Below are positions 4,750-63,888 of a DNA stretch of 64,000 nucleotides, piece by piece. Position 1 is the stretch's first letter. Each line of letters begins with the position of its first letter. The notes below the pieces were generated by a model, which searched no databases, was not told the DNA's origin, and saw only the letters and a list, made by a program, of their open reading frames with translations. The stretch is from a virus: IMG/VR virus record IMGVR_UViG_3300020583_000015, positions 1-64,000 of that record; one strand, written 5' to 3'. The position numbers were made by a program, and so were the translations under genes.

Positions 4750-4830
4750 TTGAACGATCCGATTGTTGAAGATCCCTGTGAACCTTGTGGGGGTCTTTGG
4801 TTTGTGTTGTTGAGGTGTTTGCTACAGTAG
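4750..4830 (+). CDS. possible 26-aa peptide upstream of tRNA
   Basis: AAAGGAGGTGA, a full match to a bacterial anti-Shine-Dalgarno, stands 5 nt before a TTG at 4750 that opens a 26-codon frame with a CEPCGG motif. The frame runs into the first bases of the tRNA and stops at 4830. So strong a ribosome site with no larger gene suggests a leader peptide or a remnant. Confidence 0.3.
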   Translation: MNDPIVEDPCEPCGGLWFVLLRCLLQ

Positions 4831-4896
4831 CTCGAACGGTAGAGCAGCGCACTTGTAATGCGTTGGTTAAAGGTTCAAATCCTTTCTGTAGCTCCA
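4821..4896 (+). tRNA. tRNA-Thr (anticodon UGU)
   Basis: Full cloverleaf. The acceptor is GCTACAG with CTGTAGC, and the D stem is GCTC/GAGC. The anticodon stem is GCGCA/TGCGT, with loop CTTGTAA giving anticodon TGT. The T stem is AAAGG/CCTTT with loop TTCAAAT. The 3' end TCCA encodes CCA. It reads ACA, and probably ACG, threonine codons. Confidence 0.93.
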
Positions 4897-10050: not shown

Positions 10051-10803
10051 ATGAAACATGTCCTAGTGTTGCCTGACATCCATTTCCCACATCATGACCA
10101 ACGAACCCTGAATGCAGTTGAGTCCTACATGGCCGACAACGAGTGGGATGAGGTTGTGTGGCTTGGAGATCTGATCGACTTTGACTATATTTCTTCTCAC
10201 GAGCGCGGTAATTTGCGTGGTCGCGTGGTTGCACAAAACGCCATCAGTCGTGATTACAACCTTGTCAATAGTGTGCTTGATAGGCACGCTAAGATTGTTG
10301 GTCCACATACAAAGCAAACAATAATCCAAGGGAACCATGACTTTCGAGTGGAGAGGTTCATTGACGAGAACCCCGCGCTTGAGGGGCTTGCGGAGGTTGA
10401 GAATGGCCTTCACCTCCGAGATCGGGGCATCCAATGGGTACAGGGTTGGTCAAAGGGTGAGATCTACAGGATTGGAAAAGCAGCCTTCGTCCACGGCCTG
10501 TACATCACCGAACACCACGCGAAGAAAATGGTGCAGGCGTTTGGAGAGAATGTGTTTTATGGCCACACCCATGATATTCAAACCTACAGCCAAACAAAAC
10601 GCGGAGACAACAACACCATCGTAGGCCAGAGCCTTGGATGTCTGTGTCGGTACGATCAAAAATACATGAAAGGCCGCCCTAGCGCTTGGCAGCAAGCCTT
10701 TGGCGAGTTCTACATCAAACCAAACGGCCACTTTAACTACTACGTGATTCGAATTGTCAATCACAGTTTCGTGGCCCCTGACGGAGAAGAATACGCCGGA
10801 TGA
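10051..10803 (+). CDS. calcineurin-like metallophosphoesterase
   Basis: All signature blocks of the two-metal phosphoesterase fold are present: DIHFPHHD (Asp9, His11), GDLID (Asp40), GNHD (94-97), a His in AFVHGL and GHTH (171-174). The 250-residue length is normal. The substrate could be DNA ends, a cyclic nucleotide or a phosphoprotein; placement between replication and nucleotide genes favours nucleic acid or nucleotides. Confidence 0.88.
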   Translation: MKHVLVLPDIHFPHHDQRTLNAVESYMADNEWDEVVWLGDLIDFDYISSHERGNLRGRVVAQNAISRDYNLVNSVLDRHAKIVGPHTKQTIIQGNHDFRVERFIDENPALEGLAEVENGLHLRDRGIQWVQGWSKGEIYRIGKAAFVHGLYITEHHAKKMVQAFGENVFYGHTHDIQTYSQTKRGDNNTIVGQSLGCLCRYDQKYMKGRPSAWQQAFGEFYIKPNGHFNYYVIRIVNHSFVAPDGEEYAG

Positions 10804-11255
10804 ACGACAAGCAGCATTTTGATTATATGTTTGTAAATGAAGCAACCCCAATAAGCCTTAGTGAAAGTAACACGCAACTACCTTACGGAACAACATATGT
10901 CCTTAAAAACAGCGGTAACAACGTCGAGACCTGCCCGAACGGTGCGGTTCGAGAGGTCAAAACCGATCGAGGCAGATTCGACCTTATCTCTCCATACATG
11001 GAAGATCGCCTTGCGAAGTGGTATGAAGCGGGCGCTAAAGTCTATGGGGATCGCAACTGGGAAAAAGGGATCCCGTTCAGTTCGCTACTTTGCAGCGCGA
11101 AACGGCATCTCAACCGAATTGCTAAAGGACTTCACGATGAGGATCACGAAGCGGCGACAGTATGGAACATAGCCGCGATGATTCACTTCCAGGAGCTTGG
11201 ACGGACTGACCTCAATGACCTCCCCAAATACAAAGCTGGTGCATTGCTCATATGA
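10800..11255 (+). CDS. dATP/dGTP diphosphohydrolase-like protein (DUF5664)
   Basis: The 151 residues carry the DUF5664 pattern: GRFDLI (58-63), a helix ending YGDRNWEKG (82-90), His103 in KRHL, and DEDHEAATVWN (113-123). These acidic residues and His match the all-alpha MazG-like metal site. Relatives remove pyrophosphate from purine dNTPs and include MazZ of Z-genome phages. No PurZ or DatZ is seen here, so general pool control is the safer reading. ATGA overlap with the phosphoesterase. Confidence 0.72.
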   Translation: MNDKQHFDYMFVNEATPISLSESNTQLPYGTTYVLKNSGNNVETCPNGAVREVKTDRGRFDLISPYMEDRLAKWYEAGAKVYGDRNWEKGIPFSSLLCSAKRHLNRIAKGLHDEDHEAATVWNIAAMIHFQELGRTDLNDLPKYKAGALLI

Positions 11256-11719: not shown

Positions 11720-12208
11720 TTGAGACGCATCTTTAGCTTCGACATTGATGGAGTGGTGGCAGACGTTGGTGAGCTAGCAATCATGGATCGCCAAGTTGGG
11801 AGCTATCGTTACGCGAAAGCTTTTGACAAACGCCTCCAGTGGTGGCTAGGGGAGATTGCTCACGAAGCTGATGTCTACTTCGTCAGTAGTCGAAGCTTCC
11901 AAGATGCGCTAAAGGAAACCAAGGAATGGCTCCACTTCAACGCAATCCACCTTGCGGATGTGGCGGGAGTGTTGTGTAATGTTTGTCCGTCTGACAAAGC
12001 CTCAGTTGTGAAGGCCCTCCATGCAACTTACCACTTTGACGATGATCGCCAGATTTGTGCTAGCATGCCTGCTGGTGTGGGCATCCACTGCTGGACAGAA
12101 GTGAAGAACTGGGAGGAGATCTACAAACGCTGTCACGCAACACCTCCACTCCACATCAGCTACGCGTGTCAGCAAGCGTCGTTGCCGTTTGTTAGTGTTG
12201 GGGCTTGA
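11720..12208 (+). CDS. HAD-like phosphatase/nucleotidase
   Basis: FSFDIDGVVADV places the HAD nucleophile Asp8 and acid Asp10 at the N-terminus, VYFVSSR supplies motif II Ser, and HFDDDRQ near residue 114 supplies the C-terminal Asp pair. The 162 residues fit phage 5'-deoxynucleotidase or polynucleotide phosphatase-like HADs. AAGGAG stands before the TTG start. It ends 17 nt inside the end of the convergent late operon. Confidence 0.72.
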   Translation: MRRIFSFDIDGVVADVGELAIMDRQVGSYRYAKAFDKRLQWWLGEIAHEADVYFVSSRSFQDALKETKEWLHFNAIHLADVAGVLCNVCPSDKASVVKALHATYHFDDDRQICASMPAGVGIHCWTEVKNWEEIYKRCHATPPLHISYACQQASLPFVSVGA

Positions 12209-50221: not shown

Positions 50222-50379
50222 TTTAGTCTCCTTCCTGGGAACCAAGGTCCTCGCGGGTAAAGTTTACATCTATCGCACCGGTAGGGAGCGGCTTCGCCTC
50301 GCTTAAGCGCGTAGCGGCAACCACAATCCCGGCACTGCCGGAGGCGTTCGACTGGTTCAGACACGTCAGCTTTCGTCAT
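50218..50379 (-). CDS. 53-aa Zn-ribbon protein
   Basis: CRDCGCRY and YRCDRCK form a zinc ribbon in a basic protein ending PGRRLK. Its ATG at 50379 lies inside a 20-codon frame (50366-50428) starting MCVDCQDWL that may be a leader. The stop overlaps the kinase start. It is the first clear gene after the repeat-rich control region. Confidence 0.55.
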   Translation of the reverse strand: MTKADVSEPVERLRQCRDCGCRYALKRGEAAPYRCDRCKLYPRGPWFPGRRLK

Positions 50380-50485
50380 ATGGCTCCCAACCCAGTTGAT
50401 CAAGCCAATCTTGGCAATCAACACACATACTCTGATCTGGCTAGTCTGGTATAAACCTCAACCCACAATCGCTACAAATTCGTGA

Positions 50486-50634
50486 ATCACACCCTAATGA
50501 ATTTTGGGGCATCAAAACCCCTTATCACACCCTAATGAAACGTTGATTCCCTAGGGTGTAAACCGACTTTTTCGCAATCACACCCTAATAAACCCCTTTT
50601 ACACCCTAATGAAAGCACCCTCCTAGGGGGTAGG
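50486..50634 (-). promoter_or_regulatory. cluster of TAGGGTGTG repeats (late control region)
   Basis: Four direct copies on the minus strand read TTCATTAGGGTGTGAT or close variants, at about 50486-50500, 50524-50540, 50577-50592 and 50599-50614. An inverted CCTAGGGTGT lies at 50550-50559 and an imperfect palindrome around CCTAGG at 50617-50634. The cluster fills the gap before the heptose/terminase genes. It probably binds a regulator or a phage-specific RNA polymerase form that switches on the late unit. Confidence 0.65.
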
Positions 50635-50883
50635 TTTTTGGGCTTTTTCAGGTGCGTGTCGGAGGAGGGCCTTCGGCCCCCTCCTCACACGCTTACCTGA
50701 AGTTAAAAGCGCCTTACCGCTAGAAACCGCTACCACAACCCCAGTGACGAAATCCAAACAGTTATCACACCAAGGAAAGTCCTGGTCGTCGGCCTCCCCC
50801 CAACCGGGCTTTGACGCCAGCTGACGGCGGCAATTCTCACAAACCAGACGTTCGTCAGGCTTACAAACTGGCCAGTAGGTCAT
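50623..50883 (-). CDS. 86-aa Cys-rich protein with basic tail
   Basis: Residues 1-45 hold CENCRRQLAS and WCDNCLDF, one zinc ribbon. The C-terminal half is strongly basic (TSGKRVRRGPKALLRHAPEK). DNA or RNA binding is likely. The 3' end of the gene encodes the GC hairpin. ATGA-type overlap with the 48-aa gene upstream. Confidence 0.55.
   Translation of the reverse strand: MTYWPVCKPDERLVCENCRRQLASKPGWGEADDQDFPWCDNCLDFVTGVVVAVSSGKALLTSGKRVRRGPKALLRHAPEKAQKPTP
50654..50692 (-). promoter_or_regulatory. strong GC hairpin at gene end
   Basis: GCGTGT at 50654-50659 pairs with ACACGC at 50687-50692, and the GGAGGAGGGCC / GGCCCCCTCCTC arms continue the stem with slight mismatches around a TTCG-centred loop. 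It lies in the last codons of the 86-aa gene, just before the repeat cluster. No T run follows. It may slow or process transcripts entering the late region. Confidence 0.55.
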
Positions 50884-51029
50884 CCGTTGTGTTTGAAGTA
50901 CTCCACCTGACGCAGCCGTTTTGCAGCCGCTTCTTTAGTTTTGTAAGGGCCGCCGAGGTTCTTTCGCTTACCGTCAGAACCCTTGCTTTCGGAAACCACA
51001 TGGTAGCCTCCGGCTCTTTTCACGATCAT
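50880..51029 (-). CDS. small basic protein with AP2-like strand pattern
   Basis: AAGGAG is 7 nt before the ATG at 51029. The 49 residues (GGYHVVSESKGSDGKRKNLGG, then PYKTKEAAAKRLRQVEYF) show a three-strand plus helix layout like AP2/integrase N-terminal-type DNA-binding domains and small phage proteins of that kind. It may bind DNA. A perfect 12-nt palindrome lies just upstream. Confidence 0.6.
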   Translation of the reverse strand: MIVKRAGGYHVVSESKGSDGKRKNLGGPYKTKEAAAKRLRQVEYFKHNG

Positions 51030-51046
51030 AGTCTTTCTCCTTATAT

Positions 51047-51058
51047 ACTTACGTAAGT
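51047..51058. promoter_or_regulatory. palindrome ACTTACGTAAGT
   Basis: This perfect 12-base palindrome sits 18 nt upstream of the small DNA-binding-like gene. Its core CTTACGTAAG recurs at 55789-55798 in the right arm. Two copies, both in intergenic DNA, suggest a dimeric repressor operator. Confidence 0.4.
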
Positions 51059-51073
51059 TTACAAACACCCACG

Positions 51074-51379
51074 TCAGCTCAACTTTGGTGCCTCAATCGC
51101 CTCAGGCTCACCCCAGCTAATTGGAGCGTGCCTATCGCTCCAACTCAACACTTTCTTCCCCTCATACCGAATGTGCAGCGGCTGAAGGTGGCCAGACTCA
51201 GCCTTCACCTCCACCTCATCCCACTCATTCGAAAGGACTTCGAGGCCAATGACACGCTCCAGATACGGATTCACACCCGCGCTTTTTAGCTCCCCATCCA
51301 GCGGCAGCGCTCCATCACTGTAGTGAGTCAACAGCTTTAGCAGACTGTTTGCATCAAACACCACTAAACGCTTTGCCAC
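51074..51379 (-). CDS. hypothetical 101-aa protein
   Basis: The start MAKRLVVFDANSLLKLL is a beta strand and helix, and the rest is acidic beta sequence (EVLSNEWDEVEVKAESGHL). Middle-region small gene; no family is recognised. It lies between the palindrome and the next small gene at 1 nt spacing. Confidence 0.55.
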   Translation of the reverse strand: MAKRLVVFDANSLLKLLTHYSDGALPLDGELKSAGVNPYLERVIGLEVLSNEWDEVEVKAESGHLQPLHIRYEGKKVLSWSDRHAPISWGEPEAIEAPKLS

Positions 51380-51380
51380 C

Positions 51381-51671
51381 TTACTGCACCGGCCCAGTTG
51401 GGTTGAAATTTGCCAGCAGATCCTTTAGGTCAGGCTTTGGTTCTTGCGCCAGCCTTTGTGCAAGCTCCACAGCCACCTTTTCAGCCGGTGCCCCACTCAA
51501 CACAATCACCGCAAGCTTCTCCCGCTGCTCACCAATCGCCACATCCGCGATCTGATAGGCAACGCCTCCGCCTGACTCCAGGACTGTGACAATCATCCCC
51601 ACCACAGTCTCTCCAAACTTCTCCAGCCCTACTCGTTCAGGTGCGTTAGGCACCTCCACCACTTCACTCAT
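51381..51671 (-). CDS. hypothetical 96-aa protein
   Basis: The ATG at 51671 overlaps the end of the previous gene by 8 nt. The protein has VGMIVTVLESGGGVAYQIAD strands and a helix with EKVAVELAQRLAQ. It may be a small alpha/beta structural or regulatory protein. No family is recognised. Confidence 0.5.
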   Translation of the reverse strand: MSEVVEVPNAPERVGLEKFGETVVGMIVTVLESGGGVAYQIADVAIGEQREKLAVIVLSGAPAEKVAVELAQRLAQEPKPDLKDLLANFNPTGPVQ

Positions 51672-51906
51672 TTGAAGGCCCTCCCAGGCCATACACACGT
51701 CTCAAGTCAAAATTCACCATCAGCGGATCAAGGCCAGGCTTGATGGAGTCTGACTGTATCACCAACGCAAACTTCCCCTGTTCACTTGGCTTAACCATCA
51801 ATCCAGTCACAATCGCGTCAGTCGGAATGTACTCCTCAGTGAGGTAGTCCTTGAAAATCTCCAACACCGTCATCGCGGTCGTTATGACCATTCGAGGCTT
51901 TTGCAT
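51664..51906 (-). CDS. hypothetical 80-aa protein
   Basis: The ATG at 51906 overlaps the stop of the 29-aa peptide region by a few bases. Helix TAMTVLEIFKDYLTEEYIP is followed by strands VTGLMVKPSEQGKFALVIQS. No recognised family. A longer start at 51924 would run over the micro-ORF. Confidence 0.5.
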   Translation of the reverse strand: MQKPRMVITTAMTVLEIFKDYLTEEYIPTDAIVTGLMVKPSEQGKFALVIQSDSIKPGLDPLMVNFDLRRVYGLGGPSNE

Positions 51907-51907
51907 C

Positions 51908-51997
51908 CTACCGTATCCATCCAATCACAATGTTGATGAAGTTTCCTAAAAAGAATAAACTCCCAAACAACAAAAACGCGTCTTGTAAGTGTCCCAT
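51908..51997 (-). CDS. 29-aa membrane micro-peptide
   Basis: GAGAGGAG stands 9 nt before an ATG that opens 29 codons: MGHLQDAFLLFGSLFFLGNF plus INIVIGWIR. Almost the whole peptide is one hydrophobic helix with a basic end. It fills the gap between two genes exactly. Its good ribosome site favours real expression. Confidence 0.5.
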   Translation of the reverse strand: MGHLQDAFLLFGSLFFLGNFINIVIGWIR

Positions 51998-51999
51998 CG

Positions 52000-52362
52000 T
52001 TATTTTTCTCCTCTCTTAAGCTTTATGAACGCCACAGCCAGCGCCTCCACAGTCTGCTCCATCTGGGTGTCAGGTAGCTTCAGCGTGTCAATCGCGTCAT
52101 TCCACGGCCAAAGATGGATATGGAGCATCTCATGCACAAGGGTCCCTTCAATATCGCGGTTGATTTCATCCACAGTGTGGAGGTCTAGTGGCGCGAGAAT
52201 CTTGATTGTCGCCTGACGTAGGTTCTGGATTGTGCTGCATTCCCCGCAACATCCCTCCCCAAGGTCGTTGGCCCGAGCAAAGCGGGTGCTGATTCGCCAA
52301 TCCTTAAGCTGGAGTCGGCTTTGCCACTCTCGGCTGAGTTTTGTTAGCTCTCGTGAAGTCAC
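52000..52362 (-). CDS. HExxH metallopeptidase-like protein
   Basis: HEMLH (His77, Glu78, His81) is a zinc-protease motif, with a possible third ligand in EQTVEALA (Glu102 or Glu106). The 120 residues resemble small SprT/minigluzincin-like proteins. CCGEC near 38-42 may add a metal site. The GTG start overlaps the previous TGA (GTGA). The substrate is unknown; host protein cleavage early in infection is one option. Confidence 0.65.
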   Translation of the reverse strand: MTSRELTKLSREWQSRLQLKDWRISTRFARANDLGEGCCGECSTIQNLRQATIKILAPLDLHTVDEINRDIEGTLVHEMLHIHLWPWNDAIDTLKLPDTQMEQTVEALAVAFIKLKRGEK

Positions 52363-52469
52363 TCAAGCACGTCCTTTACAAACTTCGCAATCAACAGCGA
52401 CACAAAAATCGCGCCTATTGACCCCACAAAACACGCCATCATAACTGAAAAGAACTCATCAGGGCTCAT
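52359..52469 (-). CDS. 36-aa membrane micro-peptide
   Basis: The ATG overlaps the stop of the Zn protein (ATGA) and the TGA overlaps the GTG of the metallopeptidase. The helix VMMACFVGSIGAIFVSLLIA spans a membrane, with a basic/acidic FVKDVLE end. Double coupling supports expression. Confidence 0.55.
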   Translation of the reverse strand: MSPDEFFSVMMACFVGSIGAIFVSLLIAKFVKDVLE

Positions 52470-52867
52470 TTGACCTCCTTTGGCGGCACACCTGTCGCCA
52501 GCGTCTTCATCCGAATTGCGTGCTCAATCGCGGGATCCTGGGAGTTTGCCTCAGCCTGACAATAATGCTCTCGCTTCATCGTCACCTGAAGCACTTCTGC
52601 GAAATTCATCTGACCCAAACACTGCGCACTGATGCCTCCCCCCTTCATCACATGGTCAGCGCGGAGCACTAGCTGTGCTGTGGGCTCATTACAGATTGGG
52701 CAATTCTCCATCAGCCCCACCAGCACCGGAGCCTTGCAGCCTGGACATTCCCCAAGTGCGAGCGTTGCTTGCCACTGATGACCATTCAAGCAAGCGTTGT
52801 AGGTACACGGCTGTATGCGGCGGGTCTGCGGCCACTCAAGTGAAGCTTCTTTAATGTCATCTGGCAT
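52466..52867 (-). CDS. multi-Zn-finger protein, first gene of leftward unit
   Basis: The 133 residues hold CTYNACLNGH, CPGCKAP and CPICNEP, giving two or three zinc sites, and a helical C-terminus. A sigma70-type promoter lies 50 nt upstream, so this is the first product of the leftward unit. It may be a transcription or host-takeover factor, but no family is recognised. Confidence 0.6.
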   Translation of the reverse strand: MPDDIKEASLEWPQTRRIQPCTYNACLNGHQWQATLALGECPGCKAPVLVGLMENCPICNEPTAQLVLRADHVMKGGGISAQCLGQMNFAEVLQVTMKREHYCQAEANSQDPAIEHAIRMKTLATGVPPKEVK

Positions 52868-52916
52868 GATTATTTTGAATTAATTTGGTTTTGGTAGGCT
52901 TCTGACTTCACTCATC

Positions 52917-52945
52917 ATTGTACCACAAAGTTCTTTAAGAATCAA
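52917..52945 (-). promoter_or_regulatory. sigma70-type promoter for the leftward unit
   Basis: On the minus strand, TTGATT (52945-52940) and TACAAT (52922-52917) are separated by 17 nt. Transcription would start near 52910 and read into the gene at 52867. It lies in an AT-rich stretch between the divergent gene blocks. It differs in type from the TAGGGTGTG elements further in. Confidence 0.7.
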
Positions 52946-53095
52946 CAACCTAAGTCAAATGAAGTACTTCATTTAGCAAAGGGCTCTACGCAATTAATTT
53001 GTAGTTATTTCGAATTAAATTTCGGTAGTAACGATGAGTTTTATAAAAAATTTTTTCTATAATTCGTTTTTTAAGTCCTTTAGATACAGCTAGAT
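52946..53095. other. AT-rich divergent intergenic region
   Basis: About 150 bases much richer in A/T than the rest hold several GAATTAAWTT-like strings and runs such as AAAAAATTTTTT. A TATAAT at 53058-53063 lacks a good -35. It could be an unwinding element of an origin or a bent upstream promoter region. No RNA gene or strong ORF is supported. Confidence 0.4.
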
Positions 53096-53426
53096 AGCGC
53101 CCACACTGGGCATGGGCCATGGCTGCAACAAAGTGACCCGTCCACGTCAACAAACGCATACCTAGACAGACTAGGCATAAGAGGGCTAAGTCCTTTGCTA
53201 TCAACCACATACAAGCCCTCACCACGCGAAGCATGCCCTAGCCTTCAACCAACCATCGCCTACGCCCACGGCCCACGCGCGGATAAATACGATGGCGTTC
53301 ACACCAGCAAACCGCGGCTAACTGCCGTCGAATCAATCGTTTGGCCCGACGGCCCAAATCGGCGCGGCCGATGCAAATGCCGGGCAAAACCAGCCCGACG
53401 AAAGGCAGACGGGACATGAGAAGCGC
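53096..53426 (+). other. hairpin-rich noncoding region
   Basis: Perfect short stems follow one another: GCCCA/TGGGC near 53100, CCTAG/CTAGG near 53161, GAGGGCT (53181-53187) with AGCCCTC (53214-53220), and ATCGGC-GCG-GCCGAT near 53360. A minus-strand frame across 52986-53234 has no ribosome site and is not called. The region is probably transcribed as a long folded 5' UTR, or is an origin. Confidence 0.4.
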
Positions 53427-53489
53427 AACAGACTGTGGTGGTAATAGCTCTACGGGAGTTCGACCACAGCCTGTTAGGCTTATCAGCCT
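53427..53489 (+). promoter_or_regulatory. structured leader 1
   Basis: AACAGACTGTGGT (53427-53439) pairs with ACCACAGCCTGTT (53463-53475) with one mismatch, enclosing a TAATAGCTCT...GGGAG element. An AGGCTTATCAGCCT hairpin follows at 53476-53489. AAAAGGGAG and the ATG at 53507 come next, 17 nt after the last stem. Confidence 0.65.
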
Positions 53490-53506
53490 GAAAAGGGAGA
53501 AACAAC

Positions 53507-53818
53507 ATGGCACTCGATAACGCGAAGATTGACAGTAAGCTCTTTGGGGCAGACGATAGCGCTGCGCCAGAGAAAAACCCGAAGATTGGGGCAACAGCAC
53601 GGTTTGAGGACAACGGCAATGACGTGGTCTTTACCATCAGCGCGAAGATGCCCAGAAAGCAGTTCCTGGAGCATCTCCGTGAGACGAAGACTGGCAACAT
53701 CGGCTTTGAAGTCGTGATAACTGACCCATTCGCAGTCAGCTTCAAGCGGCCTGACGGCACAACCGCCAAGCGTGTCGGTCAGCCCAACTGGCGGGGACTG
53801 TGGGTGACGATCAAGTAG
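53507..53818 (+). CDS. hypothetical 103-aa protein
   Basis: AAAAGGGAG precedes the ATG. The middle is regular beta/alpha (ARFEDNGNDVVFTISAKMPR, then KQFLEHLRETKTGNIGFEVV), ending VGQPNWRGLWVTIK. First gene of the rightward accessory block, behind a folded leader. No family is recognised. Confidence 0.6.
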   Translation: MALDNAKIDSKLFGADDSAAPEKNPKIGATARFEDNGNDVVFTISAKMPRKQFLEHLRETKTGNIGFEVVITDPFAVSFKRPDGTTAKRVGQPNWRGLWVTIK

Positions 53819-53831
53819 CAAGCCAACACCT

Positions 53832-53891
53832 GACGGCATGAGCCGTCCCTCGAATACCACACTCCACACAGCAAGCCTCCTGTGGAGTGTG
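53832..53891 (+). promoter_or_regulatory. structured leader 2
   Basis: GACGGC-ATGA-GCCGTC (53832-53847) is followed by CACACTCCACA (53858-53868) paired perfectly with TGTGGAGTGTG (53881-53891) over a 12-nt loop. TTGGAGG and the ATG at 53911 follow within 19 nt. No T run is present, so it is not an ordinary terminator. Confidence 0.65.
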
Positions 53892-53910
53892 CAGTTGGAG
53901 GTAACACAGC

Positions 53911-54093
53911 ATGACCAACGGCAAGTTCAACAAAGCGGGACTCATTCGTGAGTTCTTTGGGCTTAGCGGTACCGAAGCCATCGCCCAAATCAAGGCCCTA
54001 CCAGAGCCTGACAGATTACAGCTTGGGTCTGCCATCGCTCGGGAGAAGGGCTTGAATCCAGCGGATTTGGATTTTGAGCTCTGCGCTTACTGA
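53911..54093 (+). CDS. hypothetical 60-aa helical protein
   Basis: GGAGG lies 9 nt before the ATG. The sequence (KAGLIREFFGLSGTEAIAQI, then KALPEPDRLQLGSAIAREKG) is all helical and resembles small phage proteins with a winged or SAP-like look, though no family is certain. Confidence 0.6.
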   Translation: MTNGKFNKAGLIREFFGLSGTEAIAQIKALPEPDRLQLGSAIAREKGLNPADLDFELCAY

Positions 54094-54102
54094 ACAGCGC
54101 GC

Positions 54103-54201
54103 TTCGGGGACTCGCTGTACCCCGAACAACAGCCCTAAGCGTTATTAGCTCTTGCAGCCAATGTGGGAGCTAGGCTAGTTAAATCCTAGCGGGCTGTTGT
54201 T
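54103..54201 (+). promoter_or_regulatory. structured leader 3 (nested)
   Basis: TTCGGGG (54103-54109) pairs with CCCCGAA (54120-54126). AACAACAGCCC (54125-54135) pairs perfectly with GGGCTGTTGTT (54191-54201), enclosing AGCTC/GAGCT and GCTAG/CTAGC hairpins: a multi-branch fold. The two main stems share two bases and so may compete. GGAGG starts at the very next base, 54202. Confidence 0.7.
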
Positions 54202-58915: not shown

Positions 58916-59323
58916 ATGTACAAATGCAGCCTTTGTCAAGCAGATGTAACAGCCAGAGAAAAAGAATGCTACACAACCCTTACTGGGGATGTTGTTTGTA
59001 ACTGTGGAGAGGTGTTGTGGAAAGTTTGGACGCTAGGGAAAGGCGGTTGTGTTCGAGGATTCGCCTCGAACAAAGCGATCTATATCGAAACCGACCCAGC
59101 ACGAATTGCTGCAGACGCCTGGCGCGCTGCCCAAGAGGTTGCTAAGAGGAAAGCCGAAGAGCTTTTCAGACAAAAACTCACTTCCCAACCCCAACACACC
59201 CAAGACATCTACGAAAAACTTGAGGCAATGTTGTGGGAACTTAACATCGCGGAAGGCTCCCACATCGACACGGACATCCTGTTAAGGGTTGCGATTGACA
59301 TCGCTACTCTTGGCGAAGGCTAA
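58916..59323 (+). CDS. Zn-ribbon protein with helical C-terminus
   Basis: CSLCQADV and CNCGEVLW form a zinc ribbon in the first 35 residues of 135; a long helix (AADAWRAAQEVAKRKAEELF) and a C-terminal helical pair follow. It is adjacent to and upstream of the first amidoligase. Confidence 0.55.
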   Translation: MYKCSLCQADVTAREKECYTTLTGDVVCNCGEVLWKVWTLGKGGCVRGFASNKAIYIETDPARIAADAWRAAQEVAKRKAEELFRQKLTSQPQHTQDIYEKLEAMLWELNIAEGSHIDTDILLRVAIDIATLGEG

Positions 59324-59328
59324 CAATC

Positions 59329-60612
59329 ATGCAAATCACCACTTTCAAAGAACTTCAGGCGTTGCCGCCAAACACGCTGGTTAACTCACCGATTTGTGGG
59401 AATATTCTGATTGAGTCCCCAGCTCACGCTTTTAAAGACGGCACTAACATTCGCCTGTCTGGTTATCCTGAACAATCTGTTGGGCGAAGAGGGTATGTGG
59501 TTACTCTCAGTAAAACCTACCCATTTGAGGTAATTCAAGACCCAAAACGGACAGAAAAAATCCTGGCAATCATCTCAAAACTCGGCAGCACCAACCATCT
59601 GCCAAGATCCAGTGAATTCACCTCCTACTACAGCGGTTGTGATCCTGAGATTTTTGTGACTGACGCCGCTGGCGAAGTGATCCCCGCGTGGACATTTTTG
59701 CCGTCGAAGGACAAAAAGGCCTTCAGCAGTGCGTTTTGGGACGGCTTCCAAGCGGAGTTCACACCCCCTCCAAACAGTTGTGTGTCGTTTCTTACAGACA
59801 GCGTTCGACAGGGGTTGGTAGTGGTGTTGAATGCGGCTACCAAAACTAACGCCGGTGCGAAGCTCACACCTGCCCCTTGCCTTCCAGTGTCAAGGGAACT
59901 CCTTGCGACTGGCGCAGACGAACACATCCAATTTGGCTGTAATCCCTCCTTCAACGCCTACGATAGTTGTGGGGTTGGGGTTGAGGGGCGGGATCTGGCT
60001 TGGCGGTTTGCAGGGTCACACAAACATTTCGGCCTGAAAGGCCTAGGTCTCACTCAAGAAACCGCAATACCAATTGTCAAGACCCTTGATAAAATCTATG
60101 GAGTGACGACAGTCAGCTTGTTTGGGGATCTTGACAGCCCCATCCGAAGGCTCTACTACGGACGCGCTGGTGAGTATCGGCTTCCATCCCATGGCCTGGA
60201 GTATCGAACTATTAGCAGCATTGATCTTTGTCATCCAGCGATCTACCACCTGAGTTGGGATCTAGCGCGGATGGCACTTCATCTCTACCTTCATGGGTTG
60301 CAAGACCAATGGAGCTGTTCTGACGACGAAGCCCAGGACATCATCAACAACTGTGATACAGACGGCTCCAGAAAGGTGTTGCAGCGTAACAAACCAATGC
60401 TGATGGACTTGCTCAACAACATCTACAACAACGGCTACAGCGGTGGAGACAAGTCTCTCAAAGCCTACAACACCATCACAAACAGCCTGAAGGCTTTTGT
60501 GGCTGATCCGTTTGATGTCGCTAATAACTGGCATCTTGCAGGTGGTTGGACAAGCCACACTAACAACAACGCTTATGACTTTGCACACGCCCCGGCGGAG
60601 GTGGTGTGGTAG
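59329..60612 (+). CDS. phiEco32-type amidoligase (COOH-NH2 ligase type 2)
   Basis: The 427 residues match the phage COOH-NH2 ligase family of the glutamine-synthetase fold. After an N-terminal ~95-residue beta domain come YYSGCDPEIFVTDAAGEVIP (Asp105, Glu107), QAEFTPPPN (Glu143), FAGSHKHFGL (228-237) and GEYRLPSHGLEYRT (281-294), which supply metal and ATP ligands. Such enzymes link carboxyl and amino groups to modify peptides or proteins. Two more amidoligase-family genes follow. No GAT-II or ATP-grasp partner is visible. Confidence 0.82.
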   Translation: MQITTFKELQALPPNTLVNSPICGNILIESPAHAFKDGTNIRLSGYPEQSVGRRGYVVTLSKTYPFEVIQDPKRTEKILAIISKLGSTNHLPRSSEFTSYYSGCDPEIFVTDAAGEVIPAWTFLPSKDKKAFSSAFWDGFQAEFTPPPNSCVSFLTDSVRQGLVVVLNAATKTNAGAKLTPAPCLPVSRELLATGADEHIQFGCNPSFNAYDSCGVGVEGRDLAWRFAGSHKHFGLKGLGLTQETAIPIVKTLDKIYGVTTVSLFGDLDSPIRRLYYGRAGEYRLPSHGLEYRTISSIDLCHPAIYHLSWDLARMALHLYLHGLQDQWSCSDDEAQDIINNCDTDGSRKVLQRNKPMLMDLLNNIYNNGYSGGDKSLKAYNTITNSLKAFVADPFDVANNWHLAGGWTSHTNNNAYDFAHAPAEVVW

Positions 60613-60742
60613 CGGTTTTGAAGGCCGGTGCGGTCCAGTCGGGTTTTCTGTTAAACCTGGTGGGCCTGGTGTGTATCACAACGGCAGCCACTGGGCAATT
60701 TTCTTTTGGTACAACCCGGAAGTTGAGGAGATGTTTTGTTGA
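60575..60742 (+). CDS. possible 55-aa protein overlapping amidoligase end
   Basis: An open frame continues from inside the amidoligase to 60742 with the sequence FEGRCGPVGFSVKPGG, then YHNGSHWAIFFWYNPEV. Composition is protein-like, but there is no good ribosome site and it overlaps its neighbour by 38 nt. Confidence 0.3.
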   Translation: MTLHTPRRRWCGSGFEGRCGPVGFSVKPGGPGVYHNGSHWAIFFWYNPEVEEMFC

Positions 60743-60751
60743 GGTAAAGTA

Positions 60752-61564
60752 ATGCACATTCAACAACATAGTTTTGATGTCACAAAAGTGTTGGCTTTCC
60801 TTGGAAAAGGAGAGCTGAAGCTTGGAGTGGAGTTGGAGGTTGAGACCTCCCGGGACAAAGCTCTTGCTGCCAAAAGCGTGCTTGAGGCGCTCAACCCTAG
60901 CGATAGCCCGTTTGTTTGTTTGAAGGCAGACGGCTCGCTCCAAAATGGCTTCGAGATTGTCACCGCCCCAGCGACACTTCTAGTTCACAAACGGCGATGG
61001 CAGCCGTTTTTCGCGGGAGTTGAGGCTTCGACGTTGGATGTCGGCTCTACCACTCGCTGTGGATTGCATGTACACTTCGGTCGGAACATCCTTACCAAAA
61101 CTCAACTCATCAAATACGTCAACTTCATCAACGAGCCAGCACGTAAAAAGTTCATGGTAGCGGTTGCTGGACGGGAGTCTGTTACTTTTGCGGTGTTGGC
61201 AAAGAAAGCCCCCGAGGCGATTGGACATCTTTGTAAGGATGGTGGGTGTCAGATGGTGCCTGATTGGGCAGGTTCGTCCAGTAAACACTGTAGACTCCAA
61301 CGGCTTAACCAACGCTATGAGGCGGTGAACCTCACCAACCCCAAAACAATCGAAACGCGGCTGTTTGCCTCAACCACAAACAAAGAAGCCTTCTTTAGCA
61401 GGCTTGAGTTTGTGGTAGCGCTCATTCGGCAGTGTCAGCTTGCAGGCGACGCTGACATCAGTCAGGCTGCGTTTTGTGAGTATGTGGCGGCACGCAAGGC
61501 ATACCCGAATTTGTTGACATTCTTGCAGGAGAAGGACTATATCAAATGTGGCTCGAAACCCTAA
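60752..61564 (+). CDS. second amidoligase (Amidoligase_2-like)
   Basis: The 270 residues show the Amidoligase_2 order: LKLGVELEVE (22-31), LKADGSLQNGFEIVTAP (57-73), TRCGLHVHFGRN (101-112), QRYEAVNLTNPKTIETRLF (187-205). These supply the acidic and His ligands of the glutamine-synthetase-like site. It is a distinct subfamily from the upstream enzyme. GAGGTAAAG precedes the ATG. Confidence 0.8.
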   Translation: MHIQQHSFDVTKVLAFLGKGELKLGVELEVETSRDKALAAKSVLEALNPSDSPFVCLKADGSLQNGFEIVTAPATLLVHKRRWQPFFAGVEASTLDVGSTTRCGLHVHFGRNILTKTQLIKYVNFINEPARKKFMVAVAGRESVTFAVLAKKAPEAIGHLCKDGGCQMVPDWAGSSSKHCRLQRLNQRYEAVNLTNPKTIETRLFASTTNKEAFFSRLEFVVALIRQCQLAGDADISQAAFCEYVAARKAYPNLLTFLQEKDYIKCGSKP

Positions 61565-61746
61565 TTGTAGAGCTTCAAAAAATTGAGCAAAAATACGGCA
61601 ACATTCCTACGACAGTTGTTATGAACCCAAACCACGATCGCACTTGGTTTGAGTTAGAGTCAGTGGGATATGAGCCCCGGCTCAAACCCTGCACTAATTC
61701 CCATGCAATGATTGTGATTGGGGCAAATAAAAACTATTTTGCTTAA
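61546..61746 (+). CDS. 66-aa hypothetical protein
   Basis: The ATG lies in the end of the amidoligase gene. The sequence LETLIVELQKIEQKYGNIPT, then TVVMN, is a helix-strand pattern typical of small phage proteins of the form LIxxLxxIxxxYGNIPV. Function is unknown. Confidence 0.6.
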   Translation: MWLETLIVELQKIEQKYGNIPTTVVMNPNHDRTWFELESVGYEPRLKPCTNSHAMIVIGANKNYFA

Positions 61747-61753
61747 ACGACCT

Positions 61754-61953
61754 TGCTCAAACTCAAATAAACCCGGCCCCTTATAGCGCAGTGGATGAGC
61801 ACTCAATCAATGACCAATTGCTCTTGAGTTGCCACACAATTGCCGGCTACATTCAGAACGCTCACCTCTGTGATGCGACTGTGCCTGAGTGTCATGATGG
61901 GTTGGAAAAGCGGCGGGAAAGCACAGAGACTTGACTCTGCCTGAGTTTGAGCA
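61754..61953 (+). promoter_or_regulatory. structured leader 9 (200-nt closed domain)
   Basis: TGCTCAAACTCA (61754-61765) pairs perfectly with TGAGTTTGAGCA (61942-61953). Inside are CCGGC/GCCGG, CTCAA/TTGAG and CAGAG/CTCTG stems and a tRNA-like string (TATAGCGCAGTGGATGAGC) without a T arm. AAAAGGAG and the ATG at 61981 follow, 27 nt after the closing stem. Confidence 0.7.
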
Positions 61954-61980
61954 TCCACCTCAAAAGGAGAACTAAACAGT

Positions 61981-62577
61981 ATGATTAAATACGGATTTGA
62001 AGGAGAGTTTTTTGTTGCCTCTCTTGCTGATGGAGTTCTTCAGCCAATTTCGGCTGATATTCCCCACGACAGCTGTGGGTATCTTGCTGAGGCCCGAGGT
62101 GTGCCAGATAGTGATCCTCTTGTAGCAAGTTATCTTTACAAAGCAGCAGTCGCGAAGCTCGAAGCGGTTGTTGCGAAGAAGAATCTGAAGCTGATTCAAG
62201 AGGCTATTGCTCCGGTTCCTGCTGACACACTCCGAGCCGCGAGACGGCTGTTTGGGAAGGGTCCAACAAAATACAATAACATCTATGGGCTCGACTACAA
62301 GCCCTCAGACAGAACCCGGCGAGCTGGACTGCATATCCACATCAGCGACGAAACAGTATTCAGATACGAAAAGAACAAGGAATTCAAGTACACAAACCAG
62401 CTTGATTTTCCTCCAATCATTCAGGCTTTTGACAAGGCCTTTAAGGAAGAAATTAAGTCTACTAAGCGTTTGCCGGGGTTTTACGAAATGAAGCCTTATG
62501 GATTTGAGTATCGATCCCTTCCGGCGACAGCATCGTTGGAAAAGATTGTAGAGGTTCTTAGCAAATTGGGCCTCTAA
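61981..62577 (+). CDS. third amidoligase-family protein (short)
   Basis: The 198 residues keep the amidoligase order in reduced form: YGFEGEFF (4-11), CGYLAEARG, RRAGLHIHIS and YGFEYRSLPA. It lacks most of the linking segments of the other two and may be a minimal enzyme or a binding subunit. It is expressed behind the 200-nt folded leader. Confidence 0.72.
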   Translation: MIKYGFEGEFFVASLADGVLQPISADIPHDSCGYLAEARGVPDSDPLVASYLYKAAVAKLEAVVAKKNLKLIQEAIAPVPADTLRAARRLFGKGPTKYNNIYGLDYKPSDRTRRAGLHIHISDETVFRYEKNKEFKYTNQLDFPPIIQAFDKAFKEEIKSTKRLPGFYEMKPYGFEYRSLPATASLEKIVEVLSKLGL

Positions 62578-62872: not shown

Positions 62873-63214
62873 ATGCCTGTTGAAAAAAACGGTAACAGTT
62901 GGTATTGGCATCTTGACGGAAACTTCATGACCATCCCAACGCATCTACTCAAGACTATTGAGCCAACCTCTGTGTGGCAAGAGGTAAAAGCCCGGATGCT
63001 TGGGGACAACAAAAACTGCTATCACTGCCTTCGGCCTGGCACAGAAAGCATCACTCAAAAAGTCTACCTTGATCGTGCCTATCGAACCGTCACTATGGTG
63101 GGGTGTCGAAGGTGCCAAAGAGTGTCTGCGAGAATCGCTAAAACAGCCTCATCCCCTGCGGTTGTGTTAATGACAACAGAGATAACAGTTCCTGCTGTTG
63201 AAGGTGGTTTATGA
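62873..63214 (+). CDS. 113-aa Zn-type protein
   Basis: CYHCLRPG and GCRRCQRV form a zinc ribbon after an N-terminal beta stretch (SWYWHLDGNFMTIPTHLL). The ATG at 62873 lies 26 nt after the large stem; GGAGTGTG is a possible ribosome site. Overlaps the next gene by 4 nt. Confidence 0.55.
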   Translation: MPVEKNGNSWYWHLDGNFMTIPTHLLKTIEPTSVWQEVKARMLGDNKNCYHCLRPGTESITQKVYLDRAYRTVTMVGCRRCQRVSARIAKTASSPAVVLMTTEITVPAVEGGL

Positions 63215-63888
63215 AATTCTACAAACTGAAACATGACATTGACGGGAACCGCCTAAAGAGCCCGCCGATGGACGTGGTGTTTTTTACTCTCACCGAGCCT
63301 GAACGCCAGGAGCTGATGTGGTTTGGAGAATACACCAACCTTGTTGGGCAGGGAGTAGGAGTGAGGCTTCGAAAACACCAACACTTCTACCGTCAACTCG
63401 GCAACCACCAAGGTTACTACGGCCCAATGCCCCCAACATACGATCACTTCGGCCAGAATGAAGTGTTTATTTCGTTTTTGAAGGCTCCTTTGGAGCCGGG
63501 GCTTAGTCTGTATGCAATAAACACAACCCTTATTGCCGCCTTGGGAGAGCAAGTGATTTCGCCAGAGGTCTACGTCAGTCAGGTGTTGGGTCGCCTCAAG
63601 CCAGCACCATACCAAGGAAAGGTGTTCAAGGATTTTTGGAAGAACTTGTCTTTTGCGGCTATTAACATTCCAGGGTTGTATTCCCTAACGCTTGGACCAA
63701 CGACTATGGATGTCCTTCGCGTGGTCCACACACACCCCTCCATCAAAATGCTGCTGGTTGTTCCGCCTGACTTAGAACAATTCTTCGCTGAATCTTCAGC
63801 ACTCTTAAGCAAACTTTCAAACGGGAGTCGCCCTTCAGAACTAAAGCTGTTTTTGAGGAAACTCCCTCAAGGTCTGGTGAACGCATGA
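63211..63888 (+). CDS. hypothetical 225-aa protein
   Basis: ATGA overlap on both sides. The protein has alternating strands and helices (ELMWFGEYTNLVGQGVGVRL, INIPGLYSLTLGPTTMDVLR) and a C-terminal Ser/Leu-rich helix. No family is recognised. Its neighbours suggest a role with the amidoligases, but this is only context. Confidence 0.55.
   Translation: MKFYKLKHDIDGNRLKSPPMDVVFFTLTEPERQELMWFGEYTNLVGQGVGVRLRKHQHFYRQLGNHQGYYGPMPPTYDHFGQNEVFISFLKAPLEPGLSLYAINTTLIAALGEQVISPEVYVSQVLGRLKPAPYQGKVFKDFWKNLSFAAINIPGLYSLTLGPTTMDVLRVVHTHPSIKMLLVVPPDLEQFFAESSALLSKLSNGSRPSELKLFLRKLPQGLVNA

Follow-up and report, generated by a model that had tools for sequence, protein, structure and literature searches.

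The virus record IMGVR_UViG_3300020583_000015 carries near its end a cluster of amidoligase genes that is best read, with a probability of about three in four, as an expanded and divergent version of the peptide-ligase cassette of phiEco32/LUZ24/RIO-1-type phages, whose enzymes, acting early in infection, would form amide bonds in turn and so make or remodel a small peptide conjugate. The window analysed comprises bases 1-64000 of this 69667-base record, and the remainder of the record was also read. All components of the cassette lie on one strand, spanning about 9 kb. The composition that defines such cassettes, namely a COOH-NH2 ligase, an Amidoligase_2 protein, a class-II glutamine amidotransferase (GAT-II) and an ATP-grasp ligase, was found in one cluster, and so was the defining position, on the early strand, shared with the replication genes, and next to them across the terminal repeat. 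An unusual feature, as predicted from the sequence, is the presence of four amidoligases from distinct lineages, one of them Marvin-type and one minimal. The enzymes are as follows (aa, amino acids).

59329..60612, + strand, P1, COOH-NH2 ligase of the phiEco32-like type 2 (PF14395), 427 aa
60752..61564, + strand, P2, Amidoligase_2 of the Marvin/MEP402 two-gene type, 270 aa
61981..62577, + strand, P3, minimal COOH-NH2 ligase-like protein, 198 aa
63885-65393, + strand, fourth amidoligase, Amidoligase_2 (PF12224) of the LUZ24 type with a Cys-rich, zinc-ribbon-like N-terminus, 502 aa
65412-66332, + strand, GAT-II (PF13522, phrog_4736) starting M-C-G, 306 aa
67581-68273, + strand, ATP-grasp ligase (phrog_2599, 1.5e-28), 230 aa

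Four amidoligases and their partners

The initial annotation of the window had described P1, P2 and P3 as three divergent amidoligases related to those of phiEco32. The three open reading frames (ORFs) are exact in their coordinates, lie on the + strand and are each preceded by a plausible ribosome-binding site, and their mutual divergence and phiEco32 relationship proved genuine by Pfam (P1 and P2), by a COOH-NH2 family profile (P3) and by their motifs. The count of three has to be raised to four by the 502-aa Amidoligase_2. The same annotation had seen neither GAT-II nor ATP-grasp up to 64000, which is correct for the window but not as a lack of partners, since both are located at 65.4-68.3 kb; inspection of the sequence past 64000 found them, together with the fourth amidoligase, within 6 kb. 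The missing partners were thus rejected as an oddity, being an artefact of the window edge once the record beyond 64000 was read, and the genes that follow are therefore the partners usual in a phiEco32/LUZ24/RIO-1 cassette.

P1 matches PF14395 with 33.6 bits (cut-off 25) and phrog_3815, 'COOH.NH2 ligase', at 4e-25; it carries the motifs GCDPE, GSHKH and LEYR and about 100 additional residues at its N-terminus. The family motifs of PF14395, G-x-[DE]-x-E, [AL]-E, G-x-H-x-[HT] and E-Y-R, are present in both P1 and P3. Orthologues of P1 with 33-36% identity occur at loci L004, L016 and L029 of the three nearest relatives, denoted G001 (L004, L024), G002 (L016) and G003 (IMGVR_UViG_3300024279_000008, 65.8 kb; L029, L036, L037), and in a tree of COOH-NH2 ligases P1 groups with those of G001 and G002 (support 89/96). 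The match of P2 to PF12224 is marginal, at 22.6 bits less than 1 bit above the cut-off of 22. P2 scores 147.7 bits to a profile from the amidoligases of Marvin/LittleLaf, MEP402, ctgrD200 and My-WqHQDG, and GVELE, CGLHVH and E-x-R are all kept in the alignment. The Amidoligase_2 tree places it inside the Marvin/MEP402 clade (support 99/98) and the 502-aa protein, which matches PF12224 at 8e-19 and 68.9 bits (same cut-off), outside. Catalytic motifs are kept in all four amidoligases. GAT-II matches PF13522 at 3.7e-7 and phrog_4736 at 8e-19.

The lineages are thus a canonical COOH-NH2 ligase (P1), a 198-aa COOH-NH2 form (P3), a zinc-ribbon Amidoligase_2 (502 aa) and a Marvin/MEP402-type protein (P2). 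Descent of the four from one another by recent duplication was rejected: P2 and the 502-aa protein fall in separate clades, and P1 and P3 are sisters in none of 200 bootstrap trees of the COOH-NH2 family, in which P3 sits on a long branch whose position is unsafe. From these separate placements, the amidoligase set appears to be a mosaic rather than the result of recent tandem duplication. A doubtful extension of this idea is that a phiEco32-type cassette, a Marvin-type amidoligase and the minimal P3 have merged into a line of five ligases (four amidoligases and ATP-grasp), which would make a longer or branched conjugate or a new linkage.

The minimal ligase-like protein P3

P3 is about 70 residues below the normal length. 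No Pfam match was obtained for it, the cut-off of PF14395 (25 bits) not being reached, and phrog_3815 gave only 0.004. The hidden Markov model searches suggested in the initial annotation thus pass P1 and P2 by Pfam and miss P3, which is yet accepted by the COOH-NH2 family profile. When the phage profile of this family was run against all six-frame ORFs of the record, only P1 (1e-98) and P3 (7e-5) were found. Alignment of P3 to the family by hhalign gave 7e-7, whereas controls, including non-family proteins of the window, gave at least 0.047. In the motif alignment, P3 keeps G5-x-E7-x-E9, A-E37, G116-L-H118-x-H120 and E176-Y-R178. Profile rejection and misaligned catalytic residues, which would have counted against the second and third proteins, were therefore not seen, as P3's residues align and the family profile accepts it. 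P3 is called COOH-NH2 ligase-like because PF14395 does not match it, but profile, hhalign, motifs and an orthologue agree.

This orthologue, at L029:7668-8327 of G003, was found by a scan with a motif-centred fragment of P3. The overall identity is 39% and the catalytic motifs are kept; the motif blocks are 81% identical and the rest 26% (Fisher p = 2e-11), a pattern that favours a maintained active site over a decaying fragment. The six-frame profile search, the hhalign controls and the orthologue together rule out a chance match or a fragment. It could still be supposed that P3, possibly with P2, represents a decaying fragment or a pseudo-enzyme without activity, leaving P1, an amidoligase, GAT-II and ATP-grasp as the working set. 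The missing 70 residues and sub-threshold Pfam score of P3, and the bare pass of P2, speak for this, but the identity contrast with the G003 orthologue is that expected for a selected active site, P2 has all its motifs, and both genes have good ribosome-binding sites, so that this explanation is improbable.

A further P3-like minimal ligase lies at L039 2-634, at one end of a viral contig of 140 kb, and gives a third phage with the short form. Two candidates from the second P3 scan, L040 and L041, were discarded as long virion-type proteins with little in common beyond a KPYGFEYR string. An exact peptide-pattern search for relatives of P2 and of the whole P3 found none, no counterpart of P2 was found in G001, G002 or G003, and a PDB search with the COOH-NH2 profile returned no sequence relative.

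Genome context and related cassettes

A direct terminal repeat of 145 bases with one mismatch (1-145 and 69523-69667) indicates that the genome is probably closed, though its database class is linear. Through this repeat, the cassette leads into the replication genes across the join. The run of + strand genes begins near 54 kb, takes in the cassette and continues over the join into replication genes at about 0.2-12 kb, which encode an exonuclease, a Sak4-like annealase, a DNA polymerase, a primase and a metallophosphoesterase, while the virion genes (portal, major head protein and terminase) occupy the - strand at 12-49 kb. Among 50,697 phage records, the portal has one weak match and the DNA polymerase nine, which points to a poorly sampled phage group. 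The other genes of the cluster and its flanks are listed below.

58916..59323, + strand, 135-aa ORF with Cys-rich N-terminus, 5 bases 5' of P1, no function assigned
61546..61746, + strand, 66-aa ORF overlapping the end of P2, no function assigned
62873..63214, + strand, 113-aa ORF between P3 and the fourth amidoligase, no function assigned
63211..63888, + strand, 225-aa ORF with a 4-base overlap with each neighbour, no function assigned
66420-66761, + strand, 113-aa ORF past GAT-II, orthologue in G003
67055-67579, + strand, 174-aa ORF before ATP-grasp, orthologue in G003
68631-69137, HNH endonuclease, after ATP-grasp

The 4-base overlaps of 63211-63888 and 63885-65393 with their neighbours are consistent with a single transcript, and translational coupling of the 225-aa ORF with the fourth amidoligase is possible. 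The gaps in the cluster gave no Rfam match, to a riboswitch or any other RNA, and promoter and terminator scans of them did no better than shuffles.

Elsewhere in the record, a sole tRNA-Thr (tgt) gene lies amid the replication genes (4821-4896), after which come a protein with a dATP/dGTP diphosphohydrolase N-domain (10800-11255; PF18909, 1e-13) and a weak match to the 5'-nucleotidase NT5C (11720-12208). Within 12192-38527 lie very long - strand ORFs of 1115, 1431 and 1791 aa, the first two without a PHROG match; they probably encode virion, tail or ejection proteins, the phage group being podovirus-like and unsampled. Where the - strand block of genes gives way to the + strand block, 50250-54200, only short ORFs occur and the GC skew is strongly negative (-0.24 at 50-52 kb).

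The same phage cassette is reportedly the subject of work by Iyer in 2009 and Hardies in 2013. COOH-NH2 ligase, Amidoligase_2, GAT-II and ATP-grasp are common to the present cluster and to phiEco32, LUZ24/tf/UFV-P2, RIO-1/PSA-HP1, PA11, CW02, phiM6 and Zobellviridae; like the present cluster, cassettes of the phiEco32/LUZ24/RIO-1 type lie on one strand beside replication genes, often with HNH inside or adjoining. A cassette of the same composition is found directly upstream of primase/polymerase in UFV-P2, Zobellviridae and phiM6, and that of cr108_1 beside or among replication genes. The present cassette stands apart by its four amidoligases, where each full known cassette examined has two, by the lack of a gamma-glutamyl cyclotransferase (GGCT) or class-I amidotransferase, and by several phage-specific small genes; its components are about 25-35% identical to cultured-phage counterparts. 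The Marvin/LittleLaf module and that of Methylophilales phages MEP401/402, each of two genes, contain an amidoligase of the same clade as P2 (about 30% identity). In that module the amidoligase adjoins its own GAT-II without a PF14395 ligase, whereas P2 is part of a complete ATP-grasp cassette that has only one GAT-II. By tblastn, P1 reaches 279 phage records and the ATP-grasp ligase 299, with near-identical host spectra.

The closest relative found is G003, whose DNA polymerase is 47% identical and which has an exact terminal repeat of 127 bases. It shares P3, P1, the zinc-ribbon Amidoligase_2, GAT-II, the 113- and 174-aa ORFs and ATP-grasp, in an order that is identical or almost identical, but has a GGCT, lacks a P2 counterpart and places P3 upstream of P1. 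Zinc-ribbon-like Cys-rich segments occur at the N-terminus of the fourth amidoligase and the C-terminus of GAT-II in both phages (L029 13498-15826 in G003), and a shared docking device is possible. G001 has three COOH-NH2 ligases, GAT-II, GNAT and ATP-grasp, and G002 (L016) has two COOH-NH2 ligases, GGACT, GAT-II and ATP-grasp, so that COOH-NH2 ligase, GAT-II and ATP-grasp are common to these two as well. The third ligase of G001 (PF14395, 59 bits; L024 9440-11075, - strand) is beside a sigma-70-like gene about 3 kb past ATP-grasp, and G002 encodes, close to the beginning of its record, an RNA ligase (L025 2584-3528; PF09414, 3e-15) and a metallophosphoesterase. In phiEco32, cr108_1, UFV-P2, Lbo-JY46 and three Zobellviridae, one PF14395 and one PF12224 gene each were found. 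Since the full known cassettes examined carry two amidoligases, a number of two to four that varies by phage is a trait of the present group, and its constant core, judged by sequence, is the P1-type ligase, GAT-II and ATP-grasp.

The proximity of the cluster to replication genes, in a phage with nucleotide-pool enzymes (the PF18909 protein and the NT5C-like one), would also suit a pathway of DNA-base hypermodification. No adenylosuccinate synthetase/PurZ is present in the record, no thymidylate or hydroxymethyl transferase was seen among the ORFs scanned, and the cassette is carried by many unrelated phages, all of which makes such a role highly improbable.

Proposed chemistry and target

In GAT-II enzymes glutamine is cleaved by an N-terminal Cys, which sets free ammonia or a glutamyl group, and COOH-NH2 ligases or amidoligases and ATP-grasp enzymes form amide bonds via acyl-phosphates. 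The chemistry expected of the cassette follows from these families. With Cys2 as nucleophile, GAT-II would provide ammonia from glutamine or pass on a glutaminyl/glutamyl group. The four amidoligases and the ATP-grasp enzyme would use ATP to turn carboxylates into acyl-phosphates and couple these to amines; one after another, each ligase would form a distinct amide or isopeptide bond, and P2 and P3, as extra amidoligases, would add or alter linkages. Early in infection, this would yield a small peptide in modified form or a peptide conjugate. Linkages of the gamma-glutamyl type would agree with the GGCTs of sister cassettes. That a peptide is modified stepwise, as the initial annotation had supposed, is plausible and fits the published cassette hypothesis, whereas its host or virion protein as target is without specific support.

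Several observations weigh against this reading. Profiles for GGCT and for class-I amidotransferase/gamma-glutamyl hydrolase (PF00117 and a dedicated profile), both frequent in other cassettes, found nothing in the record. GGCT, which G002 and G003 possess, is accessory and is not annotated in every known cassette, and the class-I profile found nothing among the UFV-P2 cluster proteins either. P3 is very short, and for the GCS/GS-type fold expected of its family the AlphaFold2 models, from a six-sequence alignment and from P3 alone, reached pLDDT (predicted local distance difference test) values of 38 and 34 and are unusable. P2, from a different amidoligase clade, may work apart from the rest of the cassette. 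Finally, no assay of any enzyme from such phage cassettes was found in the papers searched.

As to the target, the cassette has been called a peptidoglycan modification cassette or phage peptide-ligase module (PMC5498523), and host peptidoglycan or cell wall as target, with superinfection exclusion as benefit, was proposed without experiment (PMC5498523, PMC6256558, PMC10580990). By this published hypothesis, a peptide part of the host envelope would be modified and the surface changed against superinfection, and this is the most likely of the targets considered, at somewhat less than even odds.

Alternatively, the cassette would tag a host or phage protein, in the manner of RimK-like addition of glutamate or peptides to ribosomal or translation proteins. 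The best family of the ATP-grasp protein is 'ribosomal protein S6 glutaminyl transferase' (PHROG), its weak PDB neighbours include alpha-L-glutamate ligases, and the zinc-ribbon-like segments seen in GAT-II and the fourth amidoligase are possible binding sites for a macromolecule. The prediction that R2K ATP-grasp enzymes in phages modify host proteins (PMC4431377) also counts for tagging. However, the PHROG name is annotation only, the PDB matches have E = 0.03-0.09, the cluster contains no recognisable target gene, and the GGCTs in sister cassettes point to small gamma-glutamyl compounds or isopeptides, so that protein tagging seems rather unlikely.

A free small molecule, such as an unusual gamma-glutamyl peptide or amide acting as metabolite, signal or inhibitor, is another conceivable product. 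The amidoligase and GAT-II pair of mycobacteriophage Marvin was proposed to make a secondary metabolite (PMC10580990), and P2 falls in that clade; the GNAT acyltransferase at L004 could furthermore cap a small peptide. Against this, none of the ORFs scanned in the cluster could be recognised as an exporter, resistance or carrier-protein gene, and such a product is considered quite unlikely.

Returning to the peptide-ligase cassette, hundreds of sequenced phages carry one, but the papers searched report neither its product nor its target. A group with two to four amidoligases in varied combinations shows which parts are core and which are exchangeable, and the 198-aa P3 offers a compact form of the enzyme for in vitro work.

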